The position numbers and the translations under genes were made by a program. From Nitrosopumilaceae archaeon (lineage in GTDB: Archaea > Thermoproteota > Nitrososphaeria > Nitrososphaerales > Nitrosopumilaceae): a stretch of 38,045 nucleotides of DNA. The notes below the pieces were generated by a model that had not been told where the DNA came from, made no database searches, and saw only the letters and a program-made list of their open reading frames with translations. Below, piece by piece: positions 6,495-38,045 of the stretch (its first letter is position 1; the number at the start of each line of letters is the position of its first letter). The stretch is taken from the NCBI GenBank assembly GCA_022823825.1, contig JAJEHG010000064.1, forward strand, positions 1 through 38,045, in the 5' to 3' direction.

Positions 6495-6540
6495 GCGGTA
6501 TGCATCGCCCGTATTAATTTAAAGGAATGGAGCTGCTGCT

Positions 6541-6561
6541 GTCGTCGTCGTCGTCGTCGTC
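6541..6561. repeat. (GTC)7 microsatellite in the dph2-tiaS divergent promoter region
   Basis: Seven perfect GTC units follow (GCT)3 in the 111-bp interval between divergent dph2 and tiaS. The run lies between the dph2 TATA box and the presumed tiaS promoter, so changes in repeat length would alter their separation. No regulatory role is shown. Confidence 0.85.
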
Positions 6562-6605
6562 GCCACCGCAACAACCTAAATGATGCGCCTCCCCCAACTC
6601 TGGCG

Positions 6606-7970
6606 ATGGGCTCGGATGTCACACTCAACGTGGGGTTTGACGACACGGACTCGCCGGCGGGGATGTGCACCACGTACCTTGCATACGTGATTGCAGGGTC
6701 GCTCCGGGAGGGGGGCGCGGCAGAGTTTCTTGACTATCCGAGGCTGGTCAGGTTCAACCCCAACGTACCGTGGAAGACGCGGGGAAACGGCGCGGTGTCC
6801 ATGCGCGTCAGGACCGGCGATCCCGGGCGCGTCAAGGACGAGATACGCAGGACCGTGTTTGAGCACGCGGACGTCGCGCACGGCGCAAACCCCGGGCTGG
6901 TGTTCTGGGAGGGGGACGACGTACCGGAGCAGCTTGCCGGGTTCGGCCGCCTAGCGCTCTGGCAGCTCATAGGCAGGGCCGACGCCAGGCGCCTTGCTAG
7001 GGACAACGGCCTGGAGATCCACTACATGGGGAACGGCCAGGGGCTGGTCGGGGCCATAGGCGCCACCGGATACCGGTGGGACGACCACACCATGGAGCTG
7101 CTGGCGTACCGCCGCGCCGAGATGTGCGGGACCAGGCGCGTCGTGTCGCCTACAAGCGTGAAGAGCATGCAGGACCGCACGTCTCCCAGCACGTTCAACA
7201 GCTACGACGAGAGGAGAGGCCGGGTGCTGATCACGCCGCGCGGGCCGGACCCCGTGTTTTACGGGATACGCGGCGAGGATGCCGCCTCGCTTGTGGCCGC
7301 CTCGCGGATGATAAGGAGCGACGAGTCCCCGCTGGGGTACATGATCTTCCGGACGAACCAGGGGACGGGGGCGCACCTGCGCAACGAGCTGACGGAGGAG
7401 TATATGAAACCCTTTGCGTCCGGATGGATACGCGGCGCCGTAACTAGCAGTCCCATAGCGGAGCGCGGAGGTCACGTGTTCTTCGAGGTGGAGTCGGGGG
7501 GGCGGCGGCGGCAGCAACGGCAACGGAGAGTCAGGTGCGCCGTGTACAAGCCCACCAGGATGACGGGCGTGGCCCGCCGCCTCGTGGCCGGCGACGAGGT
7601 GCGCGTGGGAGGCGGCGTCCGGAAGGCCTCAAAGGGCCACCAGAGGGTACTCAACGCAGAGTACATTGAGGTCATATCGCTTGCCGACGACTCGTACCTC
7701 GCAAACCCCCCGTGCCTTACATGCGGCAAGAGGATGAAGTCAAAGGGGGTGGGCCAGGGGTTCGAGTGCGTGCGGTGCGAGGGCAGCCGCTCGGCGTCAA
7801 AGGTGAGGGTAGGAAAGAAGCGCGCGGTGAAGACCGGACTGTACGTCCCGGACGCGGGCGCCCAGCGCCACCTGACCAGGCCCGTGCAGAGGCTGGAGAG
7901 GCGAAACCGCGCGGAGGCGCCCGACCGCGGCCTCGAGTGGCGCCATGTTTACGATAATAGCGGGGAGTAG
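6606..7970 (+). CDS. tiaS: tRNA(Ile2) 2-agmatinylcytidine synthetase TiaS
   Basis: TiaS uses ATP to attach agmatine to C34 of tRNA-Ile(CAU), so that the tRNA reads AUA instead of AUG. The 454-residue protein begins with the diagnostic NVGFDDTDSPAGMCTTYLA and has YPRLVRFNPNVPWKTRGNGAV. A central domain has SYDERRGRVLITPRGPDPV and YMIFRTNQGT, then an OB-fold region, and a C-terminal zinc ribbon with CLTCGKRM and CVRCEG. A short Arg/Gln-rich insert (GGRRRQQRQRR) sits before the OB fold. ATG at 6606 gives the canonical N-terminus, with an A/T-rich element about 27 nt upstream. The stop overlaps by 13 nt the 3' end of a convergent tRNA gene with a CAU anticodon. Confidence 0.94.
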   Translation: MGSDVTLNVGFDDTDSPAGMCTTYLAYVIAGSLREGGAAEFLDYPRLVRFNPNVPWKTRGNGAVSMRVRTGDPGRVKDEIRRTVFEHADVAHGANPGLVFWEGDDVPEQLAGFGRLALWQLIGRADARRLARDNGLEIHYMGNGQGLVGAIGATGYRWDDHTMELLAYRRAEMCGTRRVVSPTSVKSMQDRTSPSTFNSYDERRGRVLITPRGPDPVFYGIRGEDAASLVAASRMIRSDESPLGYMIFRTNQGTGAHLRNELTEEYMKPFASGWIRGAVTSSPIAERGGHVFFEVESGGRRRQQRQRRVRCAVYKPTRMTGVARRLVAGDEVRVGGGVRKASKGHQRVLNAEYIEVISLADDSYLANPPCLTCGKRMKSKGVGQGFECVRCEGSRSASKVRVGKKRAVKTGLYVPDAGAQRHLTRPVQRLERRNRAEAPDRGLEWRHVYDNSGE

Positions 7971-8779: not shown

Positions 8780-9940
8780 ATGGACAAAAGGATCCAGATC
8801 GCGGCAGTTGCCGGGGCAATCGCGTTCTCCGTAATGGTGCTCTCGTCCCCGGCCGACCCGCTGCCGCTGCCGGATCCGGCCTCAATGTCGGGGCGGGAAG
8901 GCGGCGACGCGCTGTCAGTGCCGGCCGAGTCGTCAGTATCCATACTTGCAACGGGCCTCGAAAAGCCCCGCGCCATCGCCATATACGGGGACCGCGTGTT
9001 TGTGACCGAAAAGGCGGGCGCAGTCCGCGTCGTGCAGAACGGCACCCTCCTGGAGCAGCCGCTTGCCGCGTTCCGCGCGGCCGACACCTTCGACGGGGGC
9101 CTGCTTGGGATTGCCGCGCACCCCGACTTTGAGGAGAACCACTACCTGTACGTGTACCTCACGTACGTACGGCAGGACGGCGCGGGGGCGCCCGACGGCC
9201 CCGCCACGCTGTGGAACAAGGTGGTGCGCATCACAGAGGCCGACAGCAGGCTGGCCGACGCGGTGGACATAATCGACGGCATCCCCGGCTCAAAGTTCAC
9301 AAACGGCGGCTTTGTAAAGTTCGGCCCCGACGGCAAGCTGTACGTCGGGACGGGCACCACGTCTGAAGCGTCCCACCTGCCGCGCGATGCCGGCTCGCTT
9401 GCCGGCAAGATACTGCGCATAAACGACGACGGCACCATACCGGAGGACAACCCGCTTGGCCCTGACTCGGCCGTGTACTCGTTGGGGCACCGCAACCCGC
9501 AGGGTATCACGTGGGACGGCAGCGGGGCCATGTACGTCGCAGAGCACGGGCCCGAGAAGAACGACGAGATCAACATAATCACCCCAGGCGCCGACTACGG
9601 GTGGCCCGACCGCGAGTGCTCCGGCGACGAAGACGGCGCGGGCGCGGCCGTCCTGTGCTACGACCCGAGCATAGAGCCGGGCGGAATCGCGTTTTACGAC
9701 CACGACAGGCTGGGGCTGGACCAGCCGTTCGTGATGACGTCTCTGAGGGCGTCCAACCTGTACCAGATTGACTTTGAGGAGGGGCTGCCGTCCCAGCAGA
9801 CCATACTGAGCGGCGCGGGGCGCATAAGGGATGTGGTGGTGCACCCGGAGGACGGCAGCGTGTACGTAATAACGTCAAACACGGACGGCAAGGGCTTTGC
9901 GGGCCCTGACGATGACAGGCTTATACATATCAAGAGGTGA
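8780..9940 (+). CDS. Exported PQQ-type sugar (aldose/sorbosone) dehydrogenase homologue, catalytic His replaced
   Basis: This is a 386-residue six-bladed beta-propeller protein of the soluble glucose/aldose sugar dehydrogenase family, with an N-terminal membrane anchor or signal (about 6-23), so it acts outside the membrane. Family motifs are GGLLGIAAHPDF (106-117), FGPDGKLYVGTG, SLGHRNPQGI (R238, PQQ-contacting position), VAEHGPEKNDE and DYGWP. In characterised enzymes the general-base histidine sits in a DHxxGRL-type segment just before the GPDG motif. Here the aligned segment is SKFTNGGFVKFGPDG, with Thr at 174. Activity is therefore doubtful or altered. The start ATG is 26.5 nt from the centre of an ATAATT box (8751-8756). 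Confidence 0.85.
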   Translation: MDKRIQIAAVAGAIAFSVMVLSSPADPLPLPDPASMSGREGGDALSVPAESSVSILATGLEKPRAIAIYGDRVFVTEKAGAVRVVQNGTLLEQPLAAFRAADTFDGGLLGIAAHPDFEENHYLYVYLTYVRQDGAGAPDGPATLWNKVVRITEADSRLADAVDIIDGIPGSKFTNGGFVKFGPDGKLYVGTGTTSEASHLPRDAGSLAGKILRINDDGTIPEDNPLGPDSAVYSLGHRNPQGITWDGSGAMYVAEHGPEKNDEINIITPGADYGWPDRECSGDEDGAGAAVLCYDPSIEPGGIAFYDHDRLGLDQPFVMTSLRASNLYQIDFEEGLPSQQTILSGAGRIRDVVVHPEDGSVYVITSNTDGKGFAGPDDDRLIHIKR

Positions 9941-9948
9941 CGGCCTGC

Positions 9949-11322
9949 ATGGGAAGAGAGGGGGAGGAGGGGAGCGCCGACTCACCGTCGTCATCAGCAT
10001 CGTTGTCGTCGTCGTCATCTTCATCAACAACAACAGCATCGCCACCATCATCGGCCATACCAAGATTCTTTGAAAAGACGCGCGACGAGCGGCTGGGCGC
10101 GATATCCGACGCCGCCGGCCTCGGCGCCGGGGACGCCGAGACCCTGAGGGATGCGTCCGGCGGCCTCGCATTCGAGCAGGCCGACAACATGGTAGAGAAC
10201 GCCATAGGCACGTTTGCCACGCCCCTGGGGGTCGCCACCAACTTTGTGGTAAACGGCAGGGACGTCCTGGTCCCGATGGTGATAGAGGAGCCCTCCGTGA
10301 TCGCCGCCGCGTCAAAGGGCGCAAAGGCGGCCCGCGGCGGCGGAGGGTTTCGCGCAGCCGCGTCAGACGCGTACAGCATAGGCCAGATACAGCTCCTAGA
10401 CGTGGCCGACGCGGACGCGGCCGCCCGCAGCATATCCGAGAGGTCGAAAGACATAATCGCGCTTGCAAACACAAAGAGCCCGACCCTCTCCAGGATGGGC
10501 CGCGGCGCAAAGGAGGTGTCGTGCCGTACAGTGGACGCGCCGTCGGGAAGAATGCTGGTTGCCGAGCTGCTGATAGACGTGGGGGACGCGATGGGCGCCA
10601 ACGTTACAAACAGCATGTGCGAGGCAGTGGCGCCGCTCCTGGAGGACGTATGCGGCGGCGGCGCACGCGCCCTGCTGCGCATACTCTCAAACTACTCCAC
10701 GCGCCGCACGGTCAGGGCCCAAGCCACGTTCCCGCAGGGCGTGGTGGGGGGCCCCGGTGTGGTAGGCGACATGATATCAGCCTTTGAGTTTGCAGACTGC
10801 GACGTGTACCGCGCCGTCACGCACAACAAGGGCGTGATGAACGGCATCATAGCAGTCGCAAACGCGACGGGCCAGGACGGCAGGGCGATAGAGGCGGCCG
10901 CCCACGCGTACGCGTGCCGGACGGGCAGGTACCGCTCGATCACGCAGTGGGACAGGAACGGTGCAGGCGACCTGGTCGGCACGATAGAGCTGCCCATGTC
11001 AGTCGGCGTGGTGGGCGGCGTGGTCAACATACACCCCGTCGCAAGGGCGTGCATGCGCATACTGGGGGCGGGGTCGGCCGGCGAGCTTGCCTGCATAATG
11101 GCGTCGGCGGGGCTGGCCCAGAACTATGCGGCAATGCGGGCGCTTGCCACCGACGGCATACAAAAGGGGCACATGCGGCTGCACGCAAGGAACCTGGCAG
11201 TCGCCGCAGGGGCCGGTCCGGACGAGGTGGACGGGGTGGTCCGCAGGATGGTGTCTAAAGGCGCGGTCTCGGTGCAGGGGGCAAGGGACGCGCTCGGCTT
11301 GGAGCGACAGACCCAGGAGTGA
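9949..11322 (+). CDS. hmgA: Hydroxymethylglutaryl-CoA reductase, class II
   Basis: HMG-CoA reductase makes mevalonate for archaeal isoprenoid lipids. This protein is of class II (Pseudomonas mevalonii type): ENAIGTFATPLGVATNF, VIEEPSVIAAASKGAK (catalytic Glu), DAMGANVTNSMCE, THNKGVMNGI (catalytic Lys), ATGQDGRA (catalytic Asp), ELPMSVGVVGGV and KGHMRLHARN (catalytic His) are all present, so it should be active. The N-terminus before IPRFFEKTRDERL is a Ser/Thr-rich tail from TCA/TCG repeats. ATG at 9949 is used; an in-frame GTG at 9937 overlaps the preceding stop codon and is possible. In archaea class II is the less usual type, often explained by transfer from bacteria. Confidence 0.93.
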   Translation: MGREGEEGSADSPSSSASLSSSSSSSTTTASPPSSAIPRFFEKTRDERLGAISDAAGLGAGDAETLRDASGGLAFEQADNMVENAIGTFATPLGVATNFVVNGRDVLVPMVIEEPSVIAAASKGAKAARGGGGFRAAASDAYSIGQIQLLDVADADAAARSISERSKDIIALANTKSPTLSRMGRGAKEVSCRTVDAPSGRMLVAELLIDVGDAMGANVTNSMCEAVAPLLEDVCGGGARALLRILSNYSTRRTVRAQATFPQGVVGGPGVVGDMISAFEFADCDVYRAVTHNKGVMNGIIAVANATGQDGRAIEAAAHAYACRTGRYRSITQWDRNGAGDLVGTIELPMSVGVVGGVVNIHPVARACMRILGAGSAGELACIMASAGLAQNYAAMRALATDGIQKGHMRLHARNLAVAAGAGPDEVDGVVRRMVSKGAVSVQGARDALGLERQTQE

Positions 11323-13859: not shown

Positions 13860-15101
13860 ATGTGCAGAAACATCATAATAGAGCAAAAAGACGGGACGCC
13901 TATGGGAAGGCGCGCAACAGACTCGTCGTCGTCACCATCGTCGTCACCCAAGTCCCCCACCAGGCGCCCCCGCGCAAAACCCAAGACAAGGCTGCTTGCC
14001 GACCGGATTGACGCCATATCCAGGATAGGCGGCTACCAAAAGCCCGAGATGCTGCCCGGCGCGCTAAAGCTCGACTCCAACGAGAACTATACGGTCCCAA
14101 AGCAGTTCCAGACAGACGCAATAATCGCGGCCCGCAGGAACGCCGACGTGCGGGAGTATCCGCTTGGCGGGACCGAGCGGCTGGTGGCGGCCCTCTCAAG
14201 GTCCACCAAGATGCCGGCGTCCATGATTGCAGTCGGAAACGGGTCCGACCAGATACTGGACATGCTGCTTGCGCACGTGGCCGGCGGAGGGCGCAGCGGC
14301 CCCGCGGCGACGGCGGAGGGCGCGAAGAAGGGCGAAAAAACAGTGCGCATACTGACGTCCGATCCCACGTTCGGGTTCTTCGAGGACCGGTGCCGGCTGT
14401 ACGGCATGCAGCTGGACGGGGTGCCGTTCTCAGACGACATGGCGCTTGACGCGTCGGAGTTTCTGGAGAGGGCGAAGGGGGCCGACGTCCTATACCTGGA
14501 CTCCCCGAACAACCCGACCGGCTTCCAGTTTGCCAAGTCAGACCTGCAGGGGATAATATCCGGGTTCGACGGCCTGGTGATAATCGACGAGGCGTACGGC
14601 GAGTTTGGCAGGTACACGGTATCCGGCATGACAAGGGGGCACCCGAACCTGGCGGTGGTGCGCACGCTCTCAAAGTCGTTCGGCCTCGCCGGGCTGCGGC
14701 TGGGCTACATGATAGCCGACAGGCGCCTCACAGGCGCGTTTACGGACGTGGTGCAGTACCCGTACCCGCTCAGCACGATCTCAATCGAGGCGGGGCTGGA
14801 GGCGCTGCGGCGCCATGATCAGATACGCGAGGCGGCCAAGGTAGTAAAGTCCGAGCGCGCCCGCATCATAGAGGCCCTGAGGAAGTACGACGCCTTTGAC
14901 GTGTTCGACTCTGACGCGAACTTTGTCCTGTTTGACGCAAAGGGCGCCTACAAGCGCGTGCATGCGGCCCTGGCCGAGCAGGGCATATCGGTGCGCCGCC
15001 TTGGGAGGGTCGCGGGGCGGCAGGGGTGCCTGCGCGTGACGGTCGGTACGCGCGAGATGAACTCCAGGTTCCTGATTGCGATCCGCGACCTGCTGGGGTG
15101 A
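13860..15101 (+). CDS. hisC: Histidinol-phosphate aminotransferase
   Basis: HisC is a PLP enzyme converting imidazole acetol phosphate to histidinol phosphate. Class I/II aminotransferase motifs are clear: LKLDSNENY, YPLGGTERLVAAL, VGNGSDQILDML, DSPNNPTGF, IIDEAYGEF, LSKSFGLAGLRLGY (PLP lysine) and LRVTVGT (substrate Arg). The start is uncertain. ATG at 13860 is used here. ATG at 13902 is also attractive because an ATAATA element lies about 25 nt upstream. Between them and the core is a Ser-rich stretch (SSSSPSSSPKS) typical of this genome's low-complexity additions. The stop TGA overlaps the GTG start of the next gene. Confidence 0.94.
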   Translation: MCRNIIIEQKDGTPMGRRATDSSSSPSSSPKSPTRRPRAKPKTRLLADRIDAISRIGGYQKPEMLPGALKLDSNENYTVPKQFQTDAIIAARRNADVREYPLGGTERLVAALSRSTKMPASMIAVGNGSDQILDMLLAHVAGGGRSGPAATAEGAKKGEKTVRILTSDPTFGFFEDRCRLYGMQLDGVPFSDDMALDASEFLERAKGADVLYLDSPNNPTGFQFAKSDLQGIISGFDGLVIIDEAYGEFGRYTVSGMTRGHPNLAVVRTLSKSFGLAGLRLGYMIADRRLTGAFTDVVQYPYPLSTISIEAGLEALRRHDQIREAAKVVKSERARIIEALRKYDAFDVFDSDANFVLFDAKGAYKRVHAALAEQGISVRRLGRVAGRQGCLRVTVGTREMNSRFLIAIRDLLG

Positions 15102-25939: not shown

Positions 25940-26013
25940 GGGTCTATGGCGCAGCCAGGTAGCGCTCAGGACTCTTAATCCTGCTGTCGTGGGTTCGAAT
26001 CCCTCTAGACCCG
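25940..26013 (+). tRNA. tRNA-Lys (CTT)
   Basis: The 74-nt cloverleaf has acceptor GGGTCTA/TAGACCC, discriminator G (26013), D arm GGCGCAGCCAGGTAGCGC, anticodon stem CAGGA/TCCTG around the loop CTCTTAA (anticodon CTT, Lys) and T loop TTCGAAT. CCA is not encoded and no intron is seen. A TTATAA box (25907-25912) lies about 30 nt upstream. A tyrosine recombinase gene follows on the same strand, so the 3' half of this tRNA is the likely attachment site of the downstream element. Confidence 0.96.
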
Positions 26014-26163
26014 CTGTTTCTGATCATATTCGAGGAAACGGCTTTGGGGTTATACCATATGCAACGGGCGCCGGGATCTCCATGTGGGATGAATGCGGCG
26101 GGGTCAGCCCGACGTTGCGGTCCGAAGTTACAGAGCCTCTGCATACGCGCGAGGTCCTGCCGC

Positions 26164-27609
26164 ATGGCTAATATGAATATATTACAGTCCGGCGCCAGCG
26201 GCCTTAAATCGGGACTGGAGATCTTGGAGGAGAAGTTGGGGGGATCTTCTAGGAGTCTGTTGGAATCAGACGAGAATGTTGCAAGGTGGCACGCAAACCT
26301 TGCGCGCTCAAGCCAGCTCACCGCCGACTCGCGCATAAGACGGCTCAACATGTTCTACAAGAACACCGGGATAACCCCCGCCGAGATGGTCGCGACGGGA
26401 AAGGAAAACAGCATGATGGCCGAGGATATGATACTAGATTATGTGACGTGGATGGAGGCGCAAAAGTACGCGCCGGGATACATAGAGGACGTCGTCAAGG
26501 CGCTCAAGTCGTGGCTGTCGTACAACTATGTCGACATACGGCGCAAGATAAAGGTGGCAAACGCCAGGATTCCCGTGACGCTGGAGGACGAGCAGGTACC
26601 CACCTCGGCGCAGCTCGAGTCGATCATGAACACCGCGGATTCGCGCACGCGCGCCTGCATGTCCCTGATGGCCTTTGCTGGGGTGCGGCCGCAGGTGATA
26701 GGCAGTCACGACGGGACCGACGGGTTGCGTGTCTCGGACGTGGAGGGACTGCACTTGGACGGTGACGGAGGGGGCTTGGTCTCGCTTGAAAGAACGCCGG
26801 CAATGGTTACAATAAGGCCGCAGATAAGCAAGGCAGGACACAGATACTTTACGTTCCTCACGTCCCAGGGATGCTCGTACCTCCTCGGATACCTGCGCGG
26901 CCGCGTAACCGCGGGTGAGGAGATAGGACCAGACTCGCCCCTGATATGCAGGAAGAGGACTGCGGGCCGGCGGGCAACCGGCGGGCAGGAGTTCATAACC
27001 ACAAAGGCCGTGACATTCCCGATAAGGGCCGCAATCAGGAGCGCCATCAAGGCAAGGCCCTACGTGCTCCGCGCGTACTTTGACACGCAGCTCCTCATGG
27101 CCGAGAGCAGCGGATGCATGACGCACGCGTACAGGCAGTTTTTCATGGGACACACGGGCGACATGGAGGCCAGGTATACTACCAACAAGGGAAGGCTGAC
27201 CGAGCAGATGATCGAGGACATGCGGGGCGCCTTTGCAAGGAGCGAGCCGTTTCTGAGCGCGGGCAGCGGGGATGACACAAAGCACAGAAGGGAGATGTTC
27301 CTGCAGTCGCTACGGCAGCAGGCCAGGGCGTACGGGATAGACCCGTCCAGCATAAGGATGCAGACGGGGGACGATGACGGCGGGGTGACAACCGCGCCGG
27401 ATCCGGGTACCGTCTCCGAACCGGCGCCGGCCGTCACGGTGCTGGAAAGCGCGGAACTGCCGCAGGACGGCCCGCGCGGGGCGCCGCCATACCAGACAAG
27501 GATGATCTCGCGTGAGGAGCTGCTGTCAAGCGTCGCATACGGGTGGGATCTGGTAAAGGACATGCCAGACGGAAAATTCCTGATCAGGCGCAGGGCCGTG
27601 CATGCATGA
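26164..27609 (+). CDS. Tyrosine recombinase / integrase
   Basis: The 481-residue protein (from ATG 26164) has an N-terminal SAM-like core-binding domain (about 35-125: ENVARWHANLARSS, FYKNTGITPAEM, YIEDVVKALKSWL) and a C-terminal catalytic domain. Residues fitting the active site are R175 (FAGVRPQVIG), K223 (ISKAGHRY), R303 (PYVLRAYF), H330 (FFMGHTGD) and Y338 (EARYTTNKGRL). The usual His of the HxxR box is Tyr300. About 100 extra residues follow the nucleophile. Its position just after tRNA-Lys points to site-specific integration there. The start is uncertain: in-frame ATG 26173, ATG 26089 and TTG 26044 also exist and no TATA box is decisive. The stop overlaps the next small ORF. Confidence 0.88.
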   Translation: MANMNILQSGASGLKSGLEILEEKLGGSSRSLLESDENVARWHANLARSSQLTADSRIRRLNMFYKNTGITPAEMVATGKENSMMAEDMILDYVTWMEAQKYAPGYIEDVVKALKSWLSYNYVDIRRKIKVANARIPVTLEDEQVPTSAQLESIMNTADSRTRACMSLMAFAGVRPQVIGSHDGTDGLRVSDVEGLHLDGDGGGLVSLERTPAMVTIRPQISKAGHRYFTFLTSQGCSYLLGYLRGRVTAGEEIGPDSPLICRKRTAGRRATGGQEFITTKAVTFPIRAAIRSAIKARPYVLRAYFDTQLLMAESSGCMTHAYRQFFMGHTGDMEARYTTNKGRLTEQMIEDMRGAFARSEPFLSAGSGDDTKHRREMFLQSLRQQARAYGIDPSSIRMQTGDDDGGVTTAPDPGTVSEPAPAVTVLESAELPQDGPRGAPPYQTRMISREELLSSVAYGWDLVKDMPDGKFLIRRRAVHA

Positions 27610-29984: not shown

Positions 29985-30400
29985 GGCGTGGCCACCCCGC
30001 AGAGCGCGCTGCCCCCTCCCCCGCGGCCCACCACCCTTGCAGGCAGCAGGTGTGACCCGTCGCCCGCGTCAGTCACTACGAACTCCAGTACCGCGGTCTG
30101 GCCCGGCTCCCAGACCGAATGGGACGACGCGGCCGGCGCGTCGCCGTCACCCACCATGACATGGTACTCGCGCATCGGATGGTCGCCCGTGTTCCGGATG
30201 GTCGCCTGAACCCAGTACGCGCCGTCGGATATCTCGTGTGCGTCTATCCACGCGGTGCACCCGGCCTCCTGCAGCACGTCGTGCGATCCAGAGAACCACG
30301 CGGCAAGGGCGCCGGCGCCCACGACAGCCACCGAGACCAGCACCAGAACCTCGATCATCCCGGATGCCGCGCGCCGCCCCTGCTGTCGTCGCCGCGTCAC
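29981..30400 (-). CDS. Type IV pilin-like protein
   Basis: The 139-residue protein has a short basic leader (TRRRQQGRRAASG), then a hydrophobic stretch beginning MIEVLVLVSVAVVGAGALAAW with an early Glu. This is the pattern of class III signal peptides cut by archaeal prepilin peptidase, probably after the Gly. The exported part has a CARDB-like beta-sandwich motif (YWVQATIRNTGDHPMREYHVMV, WEPGQTAVLEFVV) and two cysteines that could pair. The start GTG overlaps the stop of the ATPase gene (GTGA), and its stop overlaps the start of the next gene, so the three are one operon. The pilin assignment is from the N-terminal pattern only. Confidence 0.55.
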   Translation of the reverse strand: MTRRRQQGRRAASGMIEVLVLVSVAVVGAGALAAWFSGSHDVLQEAGCTAWIDAHEISDGAYWVQATIRNTGDHPMREYHVMVGDGDAPAASSHSVWEPGQTAVLEFVVTDAGDGSHLLPARVVGRGGGGSALCGVATP

Positions 30401-32244
30401 TCCTGCACCGCCTTTGTGTTAAAGTACCGCTTCGCCTCGTCGCCGGTGGCCTCGAACCTGAGGTATACGGCGTTGTCGCTTGTCTGGAGCAGCCCCATCC
30501 CGGCCCGAAAATTAGTGACGCGCTCTATCTCCGCCCCGGTCAGCCCCAGGGCCGCGCCCATGGCGCGCGCGGCCGACTGCGACATCTGCATTATCATCTT
30601 CGTGTCGAACAGCTCGGTGAGCCGGGACTCGTCGTCGAGCGCGCGGTCCATGTCGGAGAACTGCTGCGTGGACACCGCGAATATCAGCGACCTCTTGCGG
30701 CCCTGCCGCGCCATCTCGCCTATCTTTCTTATGCTGTGGTTGATCTTGGTCATGCGCCACGCCTCGTCAAGCAGGACGAACTTCCACCGCTTGGCGGGCA
30801 GCTCGTTTACGCGCCTCCACGCGTACGCCAGCACCAGCAGTATCAGCAGCCCCTCGTACTCCTGCCCGTCAGTCCTCCTCAGCGACACCACCATTCTGTC
30901 CGAGAACCGGGGGCTGCCGCGAAAGACGCGGGAGACGCCGCCGCGGACCAGGTCGGCCAGATACCTTTTCGAGTCCTCGGAGCTCGCCTCGTACAGCCCG
31001 TCTATGGAATGCACCGTATCGCAGATGCTCCTCCACTCCCTCCTCGTCTGGTTTGGCGCGTTGGTCGCGGCCCCCAACAGGTCGGCCGCCTCCACCGCGG
31101 AGCCGAACATGGCAAACGGGTCCAGCCCGTACTCCTGTCCGGGCGCCATCTCCACCCTGTCAAGCCCGAAATATTCTGCATGCTCCGCGTACTCGCCCTG
31201 AGGGTCTATCACCATACACATGGTGTCAGGGCGCTTTTCGAGAAACCGCTTTAGCAGTATCTTGTTCGTAAACGACTTGCCGGAGCCCGTGGTCCCCGCG
31301 GTGAAGACGTTGTGGTTCTTGCGCAGGTTGACATCATATATGACGGGGCCCTGCGTGTCGAGGTTTCTGCCGAGCATGACGCCGTTTGGGACCTCGAGCA
31401 TGTCCGATGACACGAACGGGTAGAGCACGTGCATGCTGTGTATGGCGCCCAGCCACGAGGCCCCGCCGCCCGAAACGATGTGCCTCTGCCTGCCAAGCGA
31501 CGTCGTGACCCGGACGTTCATCGCGGACGTGTTGCGCTTGACCGTGCGGTGCAGCTCGCGGAGCTTTTTTCTGGACGCGGCAAACACGAACCCGTTGACC
31601 GTGAATGTAAACGCCGACGTGTTGCCGAGCTCAAGCTCCTGCTTGAGGGCGCGTATGTCCCGGAGCTTTTTCTGTATGTCTGCCCTGCCTGTGCGCACCC
31701 CGCTGTAGAGCAGCTCGCGGTTCTCCATCTTGCGCAGGGCGTCGTCGGGGCGGACCGGCGCCACGTGTATCTGGAGCCGGTGGAACGTGCCAAACACGTC
31801 GTGGACCCAGGCTGGAGGCAGGACCGCGGGAGCGCCGTATACGGTGTACGCCCTCCCGTACAGGGGCGAGCCGTTTATGACACACGCAAAGTCCCGGACC
31901 CCCTGCGCCGTGACCGCCGGCGCGTTGTGGGGCTCGTCTATGGTGTATGAAAAGTTCAGCCTCTCCAGTATGTCGTCAAGCGGCTCCGCCGAGTCAAGCA
32001 TGACGCGCAGAACGTCCATCTTGGCGCCACTCGTCTGGTTCCCCTTCCCGACTGTTATGGGAACGCGCTCAAGGGTGATGACGGCCGCGCGCTCCAGCAT
32101 CTTGAGCATCTCAAAGAACTCGGCGAGCCTGCGCCGCCTCTTTTCCTCCGGCAGTATGCGGAAGTTGGTCGGGGTTATCGAGTACGCGTGCCCGTATACC
32201 CGTTTGGGCGGCCCGCCGAAGAGCCGTTCTCGTATGATCTCCAC
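30397..32244 (-). CDS. VirB4/HerA-type ATPase of a secretion or pilus-like system
   Basis: The 615-residue protein has an N-terminal domain (about 1-285) typical of VirB4/TraC proteins, then an ASCE/HerA-FtsK ATPase domain. Walker A GTTGSGKS is at 317-324, VIDPQGEY at 345-352 and Walker B FVLLDEAW at 489-496. The VirB4-like RQGRKRSLIFAVSTQQFSD (514-531) contains the sensor Gln pair. Such ATPases drive DNA or protein transfer and pilus assembly. The GTG start at 32244 gives a clean N-terminus and lies 24.5 nt from a TTAAAA element. A TTG at 32349 would add 35 atypical residues. It is followed by two pilin-like genes with GTGA overlaps. No separate coupling protein or relaxase is seen in the window. 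Confidence 0.82.
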   Translation of the reverse strand: MEIIRERLFGGPPKRVYGHAYSITPTNFRILPEEKRRRRLAEFFEMLKMLERAAVITLERVPITVGKGNQTSGAKMDVLRVMLDSAEPLDDILERLNFSYTIDEPHNAPAVTAQGVRDFACVINGSPLYGRAYTVYGAPAVLPPAWVHDVFGTFHRLQIHVAPVRPDDALRKMENRELLYSGVRTGRADIQKKLRDIRALKQELELGNTSAFTFTVNGFVFAASRKKLRELHRTVKRNTSAMNVRVTTSLGRQRHIVSGGGASWLGAIHSMHVLYPFVSSDMLEVPNGVMLGRNLDTQGPVIYDVNLRKNHNVFTAGTTGSGKSFTNKILLKRFLEKRPDTMCMVIDPQGEYAEHAEYFGLDRVEMAPGQEYGLDPFAMFGSAVEAADLLGAATNAPNQTRREWRSICDTVHSIDGLYEASSEDSKRYLADLVRGGVSRVFRGSPRFSDRMVVSLRRTDGQEYEGLLILLVLAYAWRRVNELPAKRWKFVLLDEAWRMTKINHSIRKIGEMARQGRKRSLIFAVSTQQFSDMDRALDDESRLTELFDTKMIMQMSQSAARAMGAALGLTGAEIERVTNFRAGMGLLQTSDNAVYLRFEATGDEAKRYFNTKAVQE

Positions 32245-32357
32245 GCGTACGGTGCGCCGTGCGGCTTTTAAGCGGATGTGTGAGGACAGCCCGCCAAGAA
32301 CCCGGAATCTGCAAGTCCTAGCGGCGGCAGGTACGGTGGAACCGCTCAAGCTTGCCG

Positions 32358-32435
32358 TTAGTCCGGGATAGTACGGCGGGAGTTTATCAGGACGATGTCG
32401 TTCTCGAGTAGCTCCTCAAAAACCCGCGCATATAT
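32358..32435 (-). pseudogene. 3' remnant of a gene cut by the AT-rich insert
   Basis: Immediately upstream of the ATPase gene one frame reads YARVFEELLENDIVLINSR...PD and then stop. It is a convincing protein end with normal GC-rich codons, but has no start. It runs straight into the AT-rich sequence at about 32430 and meets a stop (32436-32438). It looks like the C-terminus of a gene whose 5' part was removed when the AT-rich segment arrived. Confidence 0.4.
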
Positions 32436-32523
32436 TTATATATTATAAGCTCATATTTAGGTGGGCCTAACTTTTGGGTTAACTGATGGGACAGGAGAAC
32501 TTAAATAAATAATTGGAAAGATC

Positions 32524-32923
32524 TCAATTCTTTGAGTTTTCTTTTACAGAGATAGCCACGATGTTCATACTAATTTTATCAATTATGACGTCTTCACCGT
32601 CAACCCATATTACATACTCATCAAAATATGAATTGGGAAGGTTTTTCTCAGGTTTTTTAGGGGGTTATCAATTACTAACCGACCGTCTTCGTCTAGTTCA
32701 ACATTAATGACTATTGCAGGGATTTTTTCATCCACTTTGACACTGAGTATGCCCCCACTTGAAAGTGAGAGTGCCATGTCAGTTAAAATTACACCTACTG
32801 ATAACCATTTTTTGGAGAGGAGATTGGCCCGTGCATAGTCTCAGAAAGTTGAACAGTTACCAGTACCATGACTATAATGGCCACAACGAACGACGAAACC
32901 AAGAATATTTTTTTGATAGTCAT
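32524..32923 (-). pseudogene. Exported small protein gene in three frames, breaks at two A6 slippery heptamers
   Basis: Three consecutive frames on the minus strand join into one plausible protein of about 133 residues. An N-terminal membrane helix (MTIKKIFLVSSFVVAIIVMV) is followed by a beta-rich exported part (GVILTDMALSL, ILSVKVDEKIPAIVINVELD) and an end EYVIWVDGEDVIIDKISMN. The first frame change is -1 at CCA AAA AAT, the second -1 at CTA AAA AAC. Both have the A_AAA_AAN form in the zero frame. Either two single-A losses inactivated the gene (or are sequence errors), or it uses two programmed -1 frameshifts. Without slippage the first frame stops after about 42 codons. Function unknown. 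Confidence 0.6.
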
Positions 32924-32950
32924 ATCAAAGAAATATATCAAGATGTTGCG

Positions 32951-33148
32951 TCATTTCCTGATTAACAATACCAGTCCTATGATCAGTGGCACTACGGTGA
33001 GTCCCAGTGAATATGTGAGCGATATTGCCGTTCCCAGCACATACTCCGGTTCTGTAGGCAACGGCGGGGGATAAAGCAACATCAGACCCGTACTCACGAT
33101 ACCATATGCTATAAGGGCATAGGAGATTTTTAATTTTTTAGAGGCCAT
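32951..33148 (-). CDS. Small two-helix membrane protein in AT-rich insert
   Basis: The 65-residue protein has two membrane helices (about 8-25 and 40-61) joined by a Pro-rich loop (YPPPLPTEPEYVLG) and ends LLIRK. It is AT-rich in codon use, like its neighbours. It starts 17 nt after the stop of the 300-residue exported protein on the same strand, so the two are probably cotranscribed. No family is recognised; size and topology recall holin-like or viral membrane proteins, but that is only a resemblance. Confidence 0.6.
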   Translation of the reverse strand: MASKKLKISYALIAYGIVSTGLMLLYPPPLPTEPEYVLGTAISLTYSLGLTVVPLIIGLVLLIRK

Positions 33149-33164
33149 ATTAAAAAAAGGGGTG

Positions 33165-34067
33165 TTAGTTGAGGGATATGTCCGAGATTGTCGTTGACAG
33201 TGATGCGCTGTATGTTCCCGGCACTACGGTGCTCCTAGTATAGGTCTTGCAGTCACCAGCATCCTCGTGATTGACATCAAAATCCCTATCAAAGTTGAAT
33301 TGGACCTGTCCTAGGGCATTTTTGGTGTTTCCGGAAGAGTTCATTTCAAAGTCAACACTGTCATGGTGCGTGTCGCTGTCAAGACATACTATGGACTCAT
33401 ATGTTATTTTACCGTGTATGGCAGTTATGAAGCCCCATGAGGATGTGCTTGTACCCTGATTCCAACCATGTGTTACTACAGGGAACGGTATGGTTGCAGG
33501 GCCTACTCCAAACACAGGTACAGTCAGTATGGATGTTCGCTTCAAAGCTAGATCTGTCTGATGCACATGGTGAAGTGTTGAATCGTCACCGTCTGCGCTG
33601 GCATTACTAGTCTGTGGTTTCTCCATCTCGGATTTTGCAGCAATTACACGATCCTTCCAGTATTTAGGGTTAGCATCGAACCTGTCTTTGGTAGTAACAC
33701 CATATTCCTCAAGTTCGAAATACGATGTCATCAGTTTCGTTTCGAGTTCCTGAACTATCTCATCTGGTTTGTCTTGTTCCTGTGCTATGTTGAGCTGTTG
33801 TTCTATCTCTGCAATGTCATTCACCTTATCGAATATGAATGCCTCATATCCGGTAAGCGTGGCAACAAAAGTCCTCAGTTTTTCAATATTCTGTGCCTTC
33901 TCCGTATCTGTCTGTCCATCCAGAACGTTAGTCAGTACCCACTGCTCGTATGCGGTCAGATTGTCCAAGTCATTTTTGTCTTGATTTGCTTCCACCGTCT
34001 GTATCACTGAAAACACAGCTACTGCGATCAGCGATGCAAACAGTATAGTTGTCGCATTTCTAGTCAT
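33165..34067 (-). CDS. Exported protein with coiled-coil segment, unknown function
   Basis: The 300-residue protein has a signal peptide (about 1-27: ATTILFASLIAVAVFSVIQ, then TVEANQ). A helical, Glu/Gln-rich region follows (about 28-160: LTAYEQWVLTNVLDG, YEAFIFDKVNDIAEIEQQLNIAQEQ), likely coiled coil. The C-terminal beta-rich part has many Ser/Thr/His residues (VTHGWNQGTSTSSWGFITAIHGKI, TRSTVVPGTYSASLSTT) and two cysteines that could pair. ATG at 34067 is 28.5 nt from the centre of a TTTATA element (34093-34098), favouring it over the ATG 15 nt upstream. Surface or S-layer-like function is possible but nothing specific is recognised. Confidence 0.7.
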   Translation of the reverse strand: MTRNATTILFASLIAVAVFSVIQTVEANQDKNDLDNLTAYEQWVLTNVLDGQTDTEKAQNIEKLRTFVATLTGYEAFIFDKVNDIAEIEQQLNIAQEQDKPDEIVQELETKLMTSYFELEEYGVTTKDRFDANPKYWKDRVIAAKSEMEKPQTSNASADGDDSTLHHVHQTDLALKRTSILTVPVFGVGPATIPFPVVTHGWNQGTSTSSWGFITAIHGKITYESIVCLDSDTHHDSVDFEMNSSGNTKNALGQVQFNFDRDFDVNHEDAGDCKTYTRSTVVPGTYSASLSTTISDISLN

Positions 34068-34522
34068 TATAACACTCGACATTCGTCTAGGATATAAATG
34101 GATATAATGGAGGTACTGTATGCACTCAGGTCTACGCCTGTGAATTTGTAAAATACTGAGAAATAGGAACGAATCCTTCAAGGGACCTGAGTGCATACGT
34201 GGTACTAGTACAAATTCGCGATACAGTCACGCTTGTGACTCTGAATTAGGTATCAACTCGCACGTTGTGCTAGATATGTGCGTGAGGTGATGCCCCATTA
34301 TCGGAACAAAACGGGGCAACACGTAACAACAGTGAGAATTCGCGTAACGTGAATTTAAGATGTTCAGAGTCGCGCTCTTGTAGCAGGCAGTCGTTTGGGG
34401 AGGGGAGGAGGTATGCGTAACTGTTTCCATTCGAGTGTTTTCAATCTGATGGAATTCGCACCAAAAAAAACCAGCTTGTTCAGATTTTGCAGCTTTTCTG
34501 ACCTGCCGATCCCCCCCAGGGA
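34068..34522. other. Non-coding end of the AT-rich insert, rich in inverted repeats
   Basis: No convincing gene is seen; the 104-codon minus-strand frame (34541-34227) has shadow-like composition. The region holds the promoter of the exported-protein gene, the 14-bp inverted repeat (34119-34197), the palindrome GTACTAGTAC (34202-34211), AGTCAC-gctt-GTGACT (34225-34240), and three copies of AATTCGC (near 34213, 34335 and 34451). Confidence 0.5.
34119..34197. repeat. Perfect 14-bp inverted repeat, 51-bp spacer
   Basis: TATGCACTCAGGTC (34119-34132) is repeated as its exact complement GACCTGAGTGCATA (34184-34197). It lies about 20 bp upstream of the promoter of the exported-protein gene. It may be an operator pair, a terminal repeat of a small element, or a recombination site. 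Confidence 0.85.
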
Positions 34523-34699
34523 CTAGTGAGAGGCTAGACAAGCATCGGGGGCAGTATCAGTAGCAGGATCATTGCTACCAGCAGAAACGGCACCACGGGG
34601 GCGGTCGCCCCCGAGCAGGGCCCTGCGCCTGACGTCCATATACGAGTTTGCCACCAGCACGCCCAGCACCATGAGCAGCCGGATCAGCTCAGTATCCAT
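34523..34699 (-). pseudogene. Small two-helix membrane gene, probably frameshifted at a G5/C5 hairpin
   Basis: ATG 34699 overlaps the end of the wHTH-like gene by 11 nt. The first 29 residues form a membrane helix followed by a basic turn (LIRLLMVLGVLVANSYMDVRRRALL). After GGGGGCGACCGCCCCC the zero frame becomes hydrophilic and stops at 34523, whereas the +1 frame gives a perfect second membrane helix (VVPFLLVAMILLLILPPMLV) and stops at 34534. A one-base error or mutation in the G5/C5 hairpin explains this. SYMDVRRR resembles the first catalytic-Asp region of A24 prepilin peptidases (SYxDxRxR), so it may be a decayed or miniature peptidase, which would suit the pilin-like genes. That link is weak. 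Confidence 0.45.
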
Positions 34700-35327
34700 G
34701 TAAGAGTACGCGGCGTATCTCCTCCCCCGTGTCGTCGACCCACCTGCCTATTTCCGAGAGCTCTGCGCGCATGGCGCCCAGCCGGGACATGTCGCATGTA
34801 ACCCTCCGGGGGCGCGACCTCGGGATCAGCCCGCGGCCGCGCAGGCGGGACAGCGCGTGCTGTATGCGCCCCGGGTAGATGGGCCAGTCCTCAAAAAAGT
34901 ACTGGACGGTCTTGAGGGGTATTGTAACCGTGCGCGCCGGGCTCCCGCCTGCCCCTCCCCCTCCTCTCGCGCCCTCCATGCTGCGCGCTACATCGTACAC
35001 CTTTGCCAGCACGCACATCTCAAGGAACGATATGCCCAGCCCGGACGCCGTGGCCGACCAGCGGCCCACCCGCGTGACCGCGGGCGTGCCGTCCCCCGAA
35101 TACCGTATCAGGCCCGCGTTTTCCATGCGCCTCATGTCGTCCGGCCCCATGCGGCCGACCCGCGTGCGGCGGCGCACGGCCGCGTGCATGTGGGCTATGC
35201 GCCTCGGGCCCACGGGCCACGGCATGCCGCCCCGCATCATCCCCAGCTTGACGGCCCTCGTAGAGTGCGAGCGCATGGACAGCCCGCGTATGACTGACGC
35301 GGCGTCGCGGCCGTCGGACTGCGGCAT
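34689..35327 (-). CDS. Possible winged-helix DNA-binding protein
   Basis: The 212-residue basic protein has a segment typical of winged-helix regulators (about 60-95: MGPDDMRRMENAGLIRYSGDGTPAVTRVGRW, helix-turn then wing). A second similar segment (about 135-175) includes TVQYFFEDWPIYPGRIQHALSRLRGRGLIPRS, which has the HTH-like pattern helix-turn-recognition helix with LxxRGLI. A Gly-rich linker (ARGGGGAGG) separates them. The start ATG overlaps the stop of the ParB-like gene (TGATG). It is probably a DNA-binding protein of the element working with the ParB-like and TFB-like proteins; no named family is recognised. Confidence 0.5.
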   Translation of the reverse strand: MPQSDGRDAASVIRGLSMRSHSTRAVKLGMMRGGMPWPVGPRRIAHMHAAVRRRTRVGRMGPDDMRRMENAGLIRYSGDGTPAVTRVGRWSATASGLGISFLEMCVLAKVYDVARSMEGARGGGGAGGSPARTVTIPLKTVQYFFEDWPIYPGRIQHALSRLRGRGLIPRSRPRRVTCDMSRLGAMRAELSEIGRWVDDTGEEIRRVLLHGY

Positions 35328-36436
35328 CAGGCCCTCCTCCTCCTTCTCCTGTAGAACACGACCCCGCGCGTATCGCGGTGCTTTTGCGCAAATTCCGCAA
35401 GGTTCGCGGCGGCGTCAAACTGCATCATCTCCACGTCCGAGCCGTCCTCCTTGCCACCCGAGAGCCCCAGCCACCGGCCCGCCTCACTCGGGAACAGGTA
35501 CGTCATGGCGGCGCCGGCGCCCTCGGGGTCCGCGTCCCTGAGGACCGTGACCGTCTTGCGGTCATCCACTATGGAGGCGCGCCTTGTCTTGAGGTCTATG
35601 AGGTATGGGGGGTGCTCGTCGGTCCCCGGGATTGCGATGATGTCGCGCGCGCCCTTGATCAGCTGCCTTGCGCGCCGCACCTCCGCGGGGGGCGGCCTCT
35701 CGCCGTCCGGCGTCACTACGGCGGGCTCCTCGTCCCTGCGGTACCGGGGGGAGCCGGAGATCATCCTTACCTCCTCGTAGCTGGGCCACGCAAAGCGGGC
35801 GTCGTTGACGGGGCGCGCCCTCACCAGCCCCGACACCTTTTCGGCCAGCTCCCCCTGCATGTCGGGCCTCTGCCTTGCTATGTGGTACGGGATGTAGTAC
35901 GGCAGCACGAACTGTGACAGCTTTGAGCCCAGAAACTTGCAGAGCTCGCCCAGCGTGGCGGCGGCCCCGGGATCCAAGTCGAGCGCGATGAACTTTTGGT
36001 GTACCGTCCCCGCGCATATGCGCGACAGGGCCGCCGCGTCCTCCGCGCTCCCGTGGGCCGCCACGTAGTCAGACACGTTGCGCAGGAGGAGCGGGTTGAT
36101 CCCCGCGGGCCTGTGGTTGTACTGGACGTGCCTTACAAGAAAGTCCGACGCGTCGGCGCATTTCATGACGGCGCACCTGATATACTCGGCGCCCGCCTCC
36201 AGGGCCCCGCGGTACACGTCGCCGTCTGCCATCAGGTACGGCGTGCCGTCTATGTAGCCCACCCTGACTGCCGGAACCCCGTCCGCCGGGGACGGCTGCC
36301 CGGCCGATACCCCTGCAAAGATGAGCCTGTACGCGTCCACGTGCCTTTGCAGCGGGACCGTAATGTCGAGATCATGGCATCGTATGGACGCGGTACGGAC
36401 CTGCCGCAGCCGCCCCTGCGTGTTTTTCGCGCTCAC
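35327..36436 (-). CDS. ParB-like N-domain protein
   Basis: The 369-residue protein has, near its N-terminus (about 25-125), the pattern of ParB/Srx-type domains: VRVGYIDGTPYLMADGDVYRGALEAGAEYIRCAVM corresponds to the 'DGhHRxxAxxxxG..ipc.v' box. It is followed by DASDFLVRHVQYNHRPAGINPL, like the helical segment after the ParB box. The middle is mixed alpha/beta, and the C-terminus is basic (FYRRRRRRA). ParB-like proteins partition DNA or, in elements, act as regulators or nucleases; no ParA gene is seen. The start GTG overlaps the stop of the TFB-like gene (GTGA). Confidence 0.5.
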   Translation of the reverse strand: MSAKNTQGRLRQVRTASIRCHDLDITVPLQRHVDAYRLIFAGVSAGQPSPADGVPAVRVGYIDGTPYLMADGDVYRGALEAGAEYIRCAVMKCADASDFLVRHVQYNHRPAGINPLLLRNVSDYVAAHGSAEDAAALSRICAGTVHQKFIALDLDPGAAATLGELCKFLGSKLSQFVLPYYIPYHIARQRPDMQGELAEKVSGLVRARPVNDARFAWPSYEEVRMISGSPRYRRDEEPAVVTPDGERPPPAEVRRARQLIKGARDIIAIPGTDEHPPYLIDLKTRRASIVDDRKTVTVLRDADPEGAGAAMTYLFPSEAGRWLGLSGGKEDGSDVEMMQFDAAANLAEFAQKHRDTRGVVFYRRRRRRA

Positions 36437-37329
36437 CGCGCCCCGTACCTCCTCTCTGCTATGCGCACGGCCGCGCGCGCCGCGCGCGCCCGGCTGGTCT
36501 CCCTCTGCTCCAGCACGGGGAGGATGGCGCGCGCCTCGCGCGCCAGCTCCTCCGCGATTCCGGGCTCGTACTTGTACCCCAGGGACTGGATCTCGGTGCT
36601 CATGGAAAACGCGCTCGACGGAGGGGGAGGGGGAGGACTACGGGCCGCATCATCATCATTACCATCGCCGCCGCCGCTGCCGTCATCATCATCATCATCA
36701 TCATCAGACATGCCGTGTCCGATCATGTCAAGGAACCCTATCCTGCGCAGCACGTGCTCCCCGGTCTCCTCATCCACGTATGACGAGGCCTCCATTATGA
36801 CGTGCAGGTACGAGTGCGCGTGCCTCACCCCCAGCTCCATGCGTATGGCGTCCCGCAGCCTGGCCTCGTTTAGCGGGCAGCCCCACGTCCTGCAGACGCC
36901 GTGGAACGCCAGGACCAGGAGCTTTGCCTTTGTCATGCGCATGCCGGGCGCGCGGCGCAGCCTCCGGTACCACGCCCACACGTCCCTGCCCGCGCCGTTC
37001 GGGATGCCGAGCTTTTGCGATATGTTGCTGACCACCGCCATGTCGCGCCCCCGGCGCACGAACCTGTCCGCCCGCAGCCTCGGGTCCGGCTTGCCGCCCA
37101 CCTCCATCTCAAGGTACAGGTTGGTCCGGGTGCGCGGGAGCGCCGCCGGGTCCGCATACGCCTGCCGCCGGTCGCCGTCTCCCTTGACCACCCCGCACGC
37201 GCGGCAGACGATCTCCCCCTCGGGGGTGGCCGTCTCGTATCGCATATCGTGCGCGCAGGCGTCCGCGGCCGCCCCTTGCCCCGCGGGGCATTCGGGGGAT
37301 GCGGTGCGTCTTGGCGCGGTCGTACCCAT
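36433..37329 (-). CDS. TFB-like zinc-ribbon/cyclin-fold protein with Asp8 tract
   Basis: The 298-residue protein (from ATG 37329) starts with a zinc-ribbon-like segment (CPAGQGAAADACAH, then PEGEIVCRACGVV), very close to the TFB/TFIIB ribbon 'GEIVCxxCGxV'. A helical domain (about 95-185: MAVVSNISQKLGIPNGAGRDVWAWYRRL, KAKLLVLAFHGVCRTWGCPLNEARLRDAI) resembles one cyclin repeat of TFB. A low-complexity segment with Asp8 (TCA repeat, 36683-36706), Gly and Pro runs follows, then a helical C-terminus. It may redirect TBP/RNA polymerase to element promoters. An in-frame TTG at 37383 would add 18 residues. Divergence from true TFB is large, so this is a family-level call. Confidence 0.55.
   Translation of the reverse strand: MGTTAPRRTASPECPAGQGAAADACAHDMRYETATPEGEIVCRACGVVKGDGDRRQAYADPAALPRTRTNLYLEMEVGGKPDPRLRADRFVRRGRDMAVVSNISQKLGIPNGAGRDVWAWYRRLRRAPGMRMTKAKLLVLAFHGVCRTWGCPLNEARLRDAIRMELGVRHAHSYLHVIMEASSYVDEETGEHVLRRIGFLDMIGHGMSDDDDDDDDGSGGGDGNDDDAARSPPPPPPSSAFSMSTEIQSLGYKYEPGIAEELAREARAILPVLEQRETSRARAARAAVRIAERRYGAR
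36683..36706. repeat. (TCA)8 microsatellite encoding Asp8
   Basis: Eight perfect TCA units lie within the TFB-like gene and read GAT on the coding strand. Imperfect units extend the acidic region on both sides (about 36640-36715). Confidence 0.9.
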
Positions 37330-37524
37330 ACCCGTAACAATAATGTTTTTTGTATTTGATGTTTTTGTAATATGCCTTCCCAAAGGGGTACATTACCGTA
37401 GTATGCCTTTGGCGCGGGCCGCCCGCGGCGCCCGGAATGCGGCAGCGGGGCGTACGTGTCGGAAGTAAAATGTGTACGCGCCCGCCCCTTTGCCCTTTTA
37501 CGCTTTCCGTACTTGTGACGGACG

Positions 37525-37800: not shown

Positions 37801-37880
37801 GGCGGCGGCCAAATCATTCCTGTTGCCGCCGCAGGACGGGGCACTGGGGCGGCCCGCCTGCCCTGCACGGAACTGGCAGG
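37801..37880. repeat. Two stem-loops next to the long palindrome
   Basis: GGCGGC (37801-37806) can pair with GCCGCC (37825-37830), and CCTGCC (37857-37862) with GGCAGG (37875-37880). The second stem ends one base before the 42-bp palindrome begins. Together they form a dense structured zone of about 120 bp without a gene. Confidence 0.6.
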
Positions 37881-37881
37881 T

Positions 37882-37923
37882 TACCCGCAAACTTTCATAG
37901 TGCACTATGAAAGTTTGCGGGTA
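37882..37923. repeat. 42-bp perfect palindrome
   Basis: The sequence TACCCGCAAACTTTCATAGTG (37882-37902) is followed directly by its exact reverse complement (37903-37923), with no spacer and no mismatch. It can extrude as a cruciform. It is more AT-rich than its surroundings and lies in a gene-free stretch, followed by a TTATAA box at 37938-37943. Possible roles are recombination or resolution site, replication origin feature, or regulator-binding site; none is established. Confidence 0.95.
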
Positions 37924-37972
37924 TCTATGTTGGAACGTTATAAAGAGCGCGGCGGATTTCGTACGGCGGTGC

Positions 37973-38045
37973 ATGGCACGCGCTAAGCGTTGGTTCCTCC
38001 CTAGGATGAGTCGAATACGTATCTATGCGGGCATGCAATCCCAGT
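37973..38045 (+). CDS. Possible start of a gene running off the right edge
   Basis: ATG 37973 opens a frame of 24 codons to the window end (MARAKRWFLPRMSRIRIY...). A TTATAA box at 37938-37943 is centred 32.5 nt upstream, somewhat more than the usual 25-27 nt. The peptide is too short to recognise; the box could equally serve an RNA gene beyond the edge. Confidence 0.25.
   Translation, partial: MARAKRWFLPRMSRIRIYAGMQSQ

Follow-up and report, generated by a model that had tools for sequence, protein, structure and literature searches.

A 42-bp perfect palindrome recurring in thaumarchaeal ICEs, a candidate dyad-symmetric site for a ParB-type protein

We analyzed a 38,045-nucleotide stretch of Nitrosopumilaceae DNA (hereafter the window; contig C43 of the G000 genome, which comprises 1.70 Mb in 68 contigs) that carries a 42-bp perfect palindrome near its right end. 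We tentatively propose that a thaumarchaeal integrative-conjugative element (ICE) family uses this palindrome as a dyad-symmetric recognition site acting in cis, with the loading of a ParB-type clamp as its most likely role. An ICE-encoded DNA-binding protein would read it as double-stranded DNA with two symmetric halves, and the most likely binder would be a ParB-type clamp, loading as at parS or KorB operators. From the palindrome, ParB might tag the element for partition or else spread to promoters nearby, a spread that would coordinate the transfer and actin operons. An IS110-family element, whose putative RNA guide matches the edge AGATAC, would have inserted at the palindrome edge later. 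The paired changes between the arms, the ParB fold of a nearby gene product, and the association of the sites with ICE modules together favor docking of ParB on a dyad-symmetric site. From these observations we infer protein binding, ParB as the binder, and an effect of binding, all for what is a candidate site.

The first-pass annotation had described a 42-bp inverted repeat free of spacers and mismatches, and this description proved exact: at 37882-37923, TACCCGCAAACTTTCATAGTG runs directly into CACTATGAAAGTTTGCGGGTA, giving 21-bp arms that are 100% complementary (21/21 pairs). By chance, 2.9e-8 spacer-free arms of this length would be expected in the window; 30 Markov simulations produced arms of at most 11 bp, and the next-longest spacer-free arms in the window itself are 7 bp. 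The palindrome lies close to the contig end, as an assembly fold-back artefact might, yet next to no probability attaches to that origin: its two sides carry different flanks, relatives sit inside long contigs of three genomes, and an IS110 repeat accounts for the contig end. A second copy on contig C44 differs from the window's at 3 positions and has a different left flank, and the interior of contig C9 holds an independent 46-bp perfect relative. The differing flanks and independent copies rule out the single-arm fold-back of which the annotation had warned.

To find related sites, we used blastn to search 100 relatives and then ran a covariance model across all 95 genus genomes. Looking for the same palindrome in related genomes, as had been suggested, yielded a family of about 23 sites confined to 3 of the 95 (G000, G030, and G056), with 5-11 sites per genome; the remaining 92 gave no match to the model at E<=0.001. 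This restriction may be partly phylogenetic, as the three genomes may be close relatives. A relaxed pattern found one unrelated Atribacteria match among named GTDB genomes and none among viral contigs. Long palindromes in the approximately 200 kb examined first were nearly all of this family. The sites are intergenic, number up to three per locus, and form arrays on G030 C85 and C139 and on G056 C39, C124, and C15. The 16-bp core pattern TCATAGNNNNCTATGA occurs at 16 places in the three genomes, all within full 42-bp sites and never alone, and full arms apart from palindromes were absent in a search allowing up to 2 mismatches. We rejected transposon ends or a MITE as the identity of the palindrome, its half-arms being found only within palindromes and never as separated terminal repeats around a transposase. 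Separately, locus L041 (G056 C39) carries at about 8861-8951 a ~91-bp MITE-like hairpin (ends GTACACNCTCAGGTCGATT) inserted at a palindrome edge, with an apparent 8-bp duplication, TAACTGCC. The same locus holds two other long near-perfect palindromes, at 9125-9160 (GTCAAAGGTGACAAAGA...) and 14255-14292 (GGTCAAAACAATCAAAGA...), which have short motifs in common with the site family.

Of the 483 pair cells in the 23 sites, Watson-Crick pairs fill 445 and G-U pairs 6. Both arms have changed with pairing kept in 39 cells, compared with at most ~7.5 expected for independently varying arms, and 34 cells have changed singly; none of the 500 shuffles or the slid controls reached this covariation. Between the homologous blocks of the window and C9, the palindromes differ at four positions within the arms, all of them paired changes. 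Homologous palindromes can be aligned, whereas the intergenic DNA around them cannot. Palindromes at homologous places in three species thus keep their dyad by paired changes, which supports the suggestion that survival reflects selection; the very recent origin offered beside it is disfavored. The trinucleotide TCA (positions 6-8 from the center) is invariant across 46 half-sites, and information peaks at positions 3-8 and 12-21, with positions 9-10 variable and co-varying between arms. Judged from this pattern, the two blocks of each half-site may reflect a symmetric protein touching two grooves one helical turn apart. Hairpin-templated correction could also keep the arms matched; alone, it predicts no particular conserved blocks. 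An RNA hairpin was set aside, with G-U pairs few (6 of 483 cells) and no Rfam match, as was an intrinsic terminator, for which the match was to a generic pattern only and the stem lacked a clear T-tract downstream.

Table 1. Features of the window, with positions counted from its first nucleotide
Feature	Position	Strand	Basis or remark
tRNA-Lys(CTT), presumed attachment site	25940..26014	+	Beside the predicted integrase
Predicted tyrosine integrase beside tRNA-Lys	26044..27609	+	Sequence motifs; no family match for the window copy
VirB4/HerA-type transfer ATPase	30397..32349	-	PF01935, PF12846
Winged-helix protein, same operon as ParB-like	34689..35327	-	Weak MarR-like fold
ParB-like gene (CTPase + HTH fold)	35327..36436	-	Best 29 PDB matches
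TFIIB-like gene	36433..37383	-	Zinc-ribbon motif read from sequence; position as in PMC6563490
AbrB/MazE-like gene, 59 aa	37525..37704	+	PF04014, E 2.4e-5
8-bp GC stem, 15-nt loop, left of palindrome	37802..37832	.	Arms 37802-37809 / 37825-37832
Box GGGCGGCCCGCCTGCCC, left of palindrome	37847..37863	+	Conserved at ParB-type loci
Extended dyad GGCAG..TACCC...GGGTATCT	37875..37926	.	Outer part conserved only partly
42-bp perfect palindrome, the symmetric site itself	37882..37923	.	21/21 pairs
Outer conserved block TACCCGCAAA, left arm	37882..37891	.	Mirror copy 37914-37923; positions 12-21
Inner 16-bp core TCATAGTGCACTATGA	37895..37910	.	TCA at positions 6-8 from center
CT (AG on other strand), apparent IS110 insertion core	37925..37926	+	Inside the palindrome's outer edge
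Right (non-coding) end, IS110-family element	37927..38045	-	Transposase would lie past the contig end, pointing at the palindrome
TTATAAAG, TATA-like box in IS end	37938..37945	.	Read from sequence
Putative guide CATAGATAC, IS non-coding region	38019..38027	-	Identical to IS/palindrome junction

The sites concentrate beside two ICE modules, a ParB-type module (wHTH–ParB–TFIIB-like–AbrB) and a second one with pilin-like, actin-like, and VirD4 genes. The ParB-like–TFIIB-like–AbrB block of the window recurs in C9, 30C4, 56C15, and 56C51 with 81-85% DNA identity over 1.8-2.3 kb, and a palindrome lies beyond AbrB at five of six close ParB-TFIIB blocks; the sixth, 56C59, has neither AbrB nor a palindrome beside it. 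Palindromes also occur at actin-type loci (C20, C44, 30C8, 56C59, and 56C39), where the actin-like gene (PF06723, 45 bits) neighbors a pilin-like gene and a VirD4/TrwB-like ATPase. At the first four of these, the pilin-like-actin-VirD4 operon has a conserved TATA box, with the palindrome 70-150 bp upstream of it. On 56C51 a palindrome precedes VirB4, the order tRNA–integrase–palindrome is found at four loci, and the actin locus 56C114 has no palindrome. In total, 11 of 14 loci have an actin-like gene or a ParB-like gene (>70% identical) no more than 5 kb away, and such regions make up 2.4% of the genomes (naive p 4e-16; p 6e-4 counting only two independent modules, as orthology makes the loci non-independent). 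The remaining three are 30C139, 30C85, and 56C124, two of which follow an integrase at tRNA-Lys. Only genomes with a close ParB have the palindrome family, and divergent ParB loci in other genomes showed neither such a palindrome nor another convincing long one. This absence is as expected if site and ParB co-evolve, and phylogeny alone would predict it too.

The surroundings resemble the published thaumarchaeal ICEs, which have VirB4, pilin genes, and TFIIB beside ParB, and in which no relaxase was found (PMC6563490). Two homologous loci, L041 and L093, give weak integrase matches. Of the attL/attR direct repeats we saw only a presumed attL, at tRNA-Lys; when we searched for attR, the sole other genomic match was a second tRNA-Lys. 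We also observed that positions 32350-34200, between the VirB4 and winged-helix genes, have 45-47% GC against ~62% for the window and are probably a later insertion. Loci L040 (G056 C124) and L046 (G030 C139) correspond to the window's tRNA-Lys/cytochrome oxidase locus and have an integrase with palindromes behind it, which may be what is left of an ICE. The ICE transfer module also includes an actin-like gene (MreB/ALP; L003 7225-8076 and homologues) that is conserved in all three genomes.

Immediately left of the palindrome, the first of the two further stems that had been annotated is a simple GC stem of 8 bp, for which the alignment of homologous loci showed no counterpart; the second amounts to a weak 4-5 bp stem. 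The latter overlaps, at about 37847-37863, the box GGGCGGCCCGCCTGCCC, which is shared by C43, C9, and 30C4 and is weaker in 56C51.

To the right, the palindrome adjoins an IS110-family end. The end of C44 likewise has the palindrome (3 differences) followed by 122 bp identical to C43 through the last base, so both contigs stop inside a repeat, and the window ends at 38045 because C43 ends inside this IS110-family repeat. Intact relatives on C55 carry PF01548 and PF02371 (DEDD and Transposase_20 domains), and in them the non-coding region comes after the transposase, the IS1111-type arrangement (PMC11187229). The IS non-coding region has two GGGATTNNATGCCCG loops, then bases copying the element's own junctions, CATAGATAC for the right end and CTAGCTAA for the left end (copy C55a). 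In both C43 and C44 the putative guide matches the IS/palindrome-edge junction CAT-AG-ATACCC (edge AGATAC). The apparent insertion core recurs at the matching position in C44 and G056 C124, and the latter has a remnant of the same IS end at the same place on the palindrome. Since other copies of this element do not adjoin palindromes, the palindrome is one target rather than part of the IS, and the best explanation is that the element entered the palindrome's outer edge in a separate, later event. The TATA box noted earlier beside the palindrome belongs to this IS110 end and not to a host gene, while the AbrB-like gene noted with it is real and conserved; by analogy to PMC11187229, the box may be part of an IS circle-junction promoter. 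A promoter for a new gene at 37974 was discarded, as the short open frame (37974-38045) falls in the IS110 non-coding end. On C55 (L037, G000), the copies at 6061-7590 and 9395-10877 are archaeal IS110-family elements with a putative guide RNA region 3' of the transposase, and their guide bases differ per copy, each matching its own flanks.

Among proteins that could bind the palindrome, ParB is our first candidate and AbrB a strong rival. A binding site for AbrB-like or ParB-like regulators, one of the functions first suggested, is the best-supported class, though a putative one, given the ParB/Noc/KorB fold and the presence of the palindrome with the ParB-TFIIB-AbrB block at five of six loci. 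The ParB-like gene lies 1.5 kb from the palindrome; its product has no Pfam match, and its AlphaFold model, of high confidence over the first ~220 residues, has ParB, Noc, KorB, or Spo0J as all of its best 29 PDB matches. The TFIIB-like gene has no Pfam or NCBIfam match. Against recognition by ParB stand the 42-bp length of the conserved unit, compared with 14-16 bp for parS or OB, and the close ParB locus 56C59, which has no adjoining site; the distribution of the site follows AbrB more closely than ParB. The palindrome may instead be an operator through which the AbrB-like (or winged-helix) protein controls the ICE operons, with ParB uninvolved in recognition, an account we regard as doubtful. 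AbrB/MazE-type proteins are symmetric oligomers and would suit a dyad site. The AbrB-like gene (24.6 bits against a PF04014 cut-off of 24.7) occurs at all five palindrome-bearing ParB loci and no other, where the remaining four copies are 80-83% identical to the window's, and is missing at 56C59. The sites lie upstream of operons, and the winged-helix protein weakly resembles the MarR fold. However, the site is downstream of abrB and not in its promoter, its distance from promoters varies (70-150 bp), and 42 bp is long for one dimer. We think it unlikely that ParB and actin form a hybrid partition system in which one 42-bp centromere would serve a ParB-type CTPase clamp and an actin-like filament protein, with additional KorB-like silencing of transfer operons.

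Were the palindrome a REP-like or minimal mobile element, its link to ICEs would be an insertion preference and its symmetry would be kept by hairpin-templated (quasipalindrome) correction without selection. The sites are indeed dispersed, intergenic, and in arrays, REPs are targets of IS110 elements (PMC1525189, PMC11187229), and template switching can perfect palindromes (PMC7202029, PMC3820800). Yet the sites number only 5-11 per genome, we noticed no target duplication, full half-arms never occur alone, sites are kept at homologous places across species, and the base composition of two protein-contact-like blocks is conserved, which correction alone does not predict; we judge this less likely, indeed improbable. 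Long perfect palindromes are also typical of protelomerase targets and of some nick sites, and these ICEs have no known replication or relaxase genes (PMC6563490), so that one might envisage an origin of replication or transfer with a hairpin nick site, or a site where the telomeres of a linear form of the element are resolved. The protelomerase family PF16684, however, matched none of the three palindrome genomes (one control genome matched), which disfavors a protelomerase site; up to three sites share a locus, two module types carry them, and no relaxase is known in these ICEs. We consider such a role quite improbable, and no positive evidence emerged for the resolution site, oriT, or origin named at the outset.

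Thaumarchaeal ICEs are known by gene content only, and we found no cis-acting site (centromere, operator, or oriT) described for them. A defined 42-bp site beside ParB, AbrB, and actin-like genes would offer a DNA handle on ICE partition, activation, and transfer and could become a component of genetic tools for thaumarchaea; its flank adds a likely archaeal example of an IS110-family element guided by RNA into the edge of a palindrome. The elements here share with the published ICEs VirB4, VirD4, a ParB-like gene beside a putative TFIIB-like one, pilin-like genes, and an integrase at a tRNA; neither the palindromic site nor the actin-like module seems to be described there, the string "palindrom" occurring only within the title of a CRISPR reference (PMC6563490).

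Returning to ParB-type docking, our preferred reading, the closest comparison is with parS and its ParB proteins (Spo0J, Noc): a ParB-type CTPase + HTH fold is encoded in cis, and a palindromic site lies near parB, here at five of six close ParB loci. The parS site, however, has an autonomous core of 14-16 bp, whereas the site here spans 42 bp, has its 16-bp core only inside full 42-bp sites in the three genomes, and is unrelated in sequence to canonical parS; in addition, we noticed no ParA in the window, and an actin-like gene stands in the companion module. The KorB operator (OB) of plasmid RK2 likewise pairs a ParB-family protein with several sites upstream of operons at variable distances, and KorB can influence promoters from OB sites at distances ranging between 4 bp and more than 1 kb (PMC11790492). 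OB is 16 bp, though, the counterparts here of a KorA-like co-repressor are at most the candidate AbrB and winged-helix proteins, and the promoters are of the archaeal TATA/TFB type. Because its length departs from the defining size, we do not file the palindrome as parS or OB, and its binder is a candidate only; none of the known site families fits it in every respect. The AspA centromere of pNOB8 also belongs to an archaeal conjugative element, with a long palindrome and with ParB-like and winged-helix proteins in one operon, but AspA binds a 23-bp palindrome (PMC5120986) upstream of aspA; here the winged-helix protein is only weakly MarR-like, AspA is absent among the best matches listed, and a TFIIB-like gene takes the place of parA. 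REP/BIME sequences with IS110-family insertions (ISPa11, IS621) share extragenic palindromes, arrays, and insertion at a fixed position, and differ in copy number (over 100 compared with 5-11 per genome here) and from a palindrome tied to ICE modules and conserved at homologous sites. For the right flank only, the likeness is to IS110/IS1111 elements, with DEDD and Transposase_20 domains on the intact C55 relative, a long non-coding region downstream of tnp, and a putative guide matching the insertion junctions.
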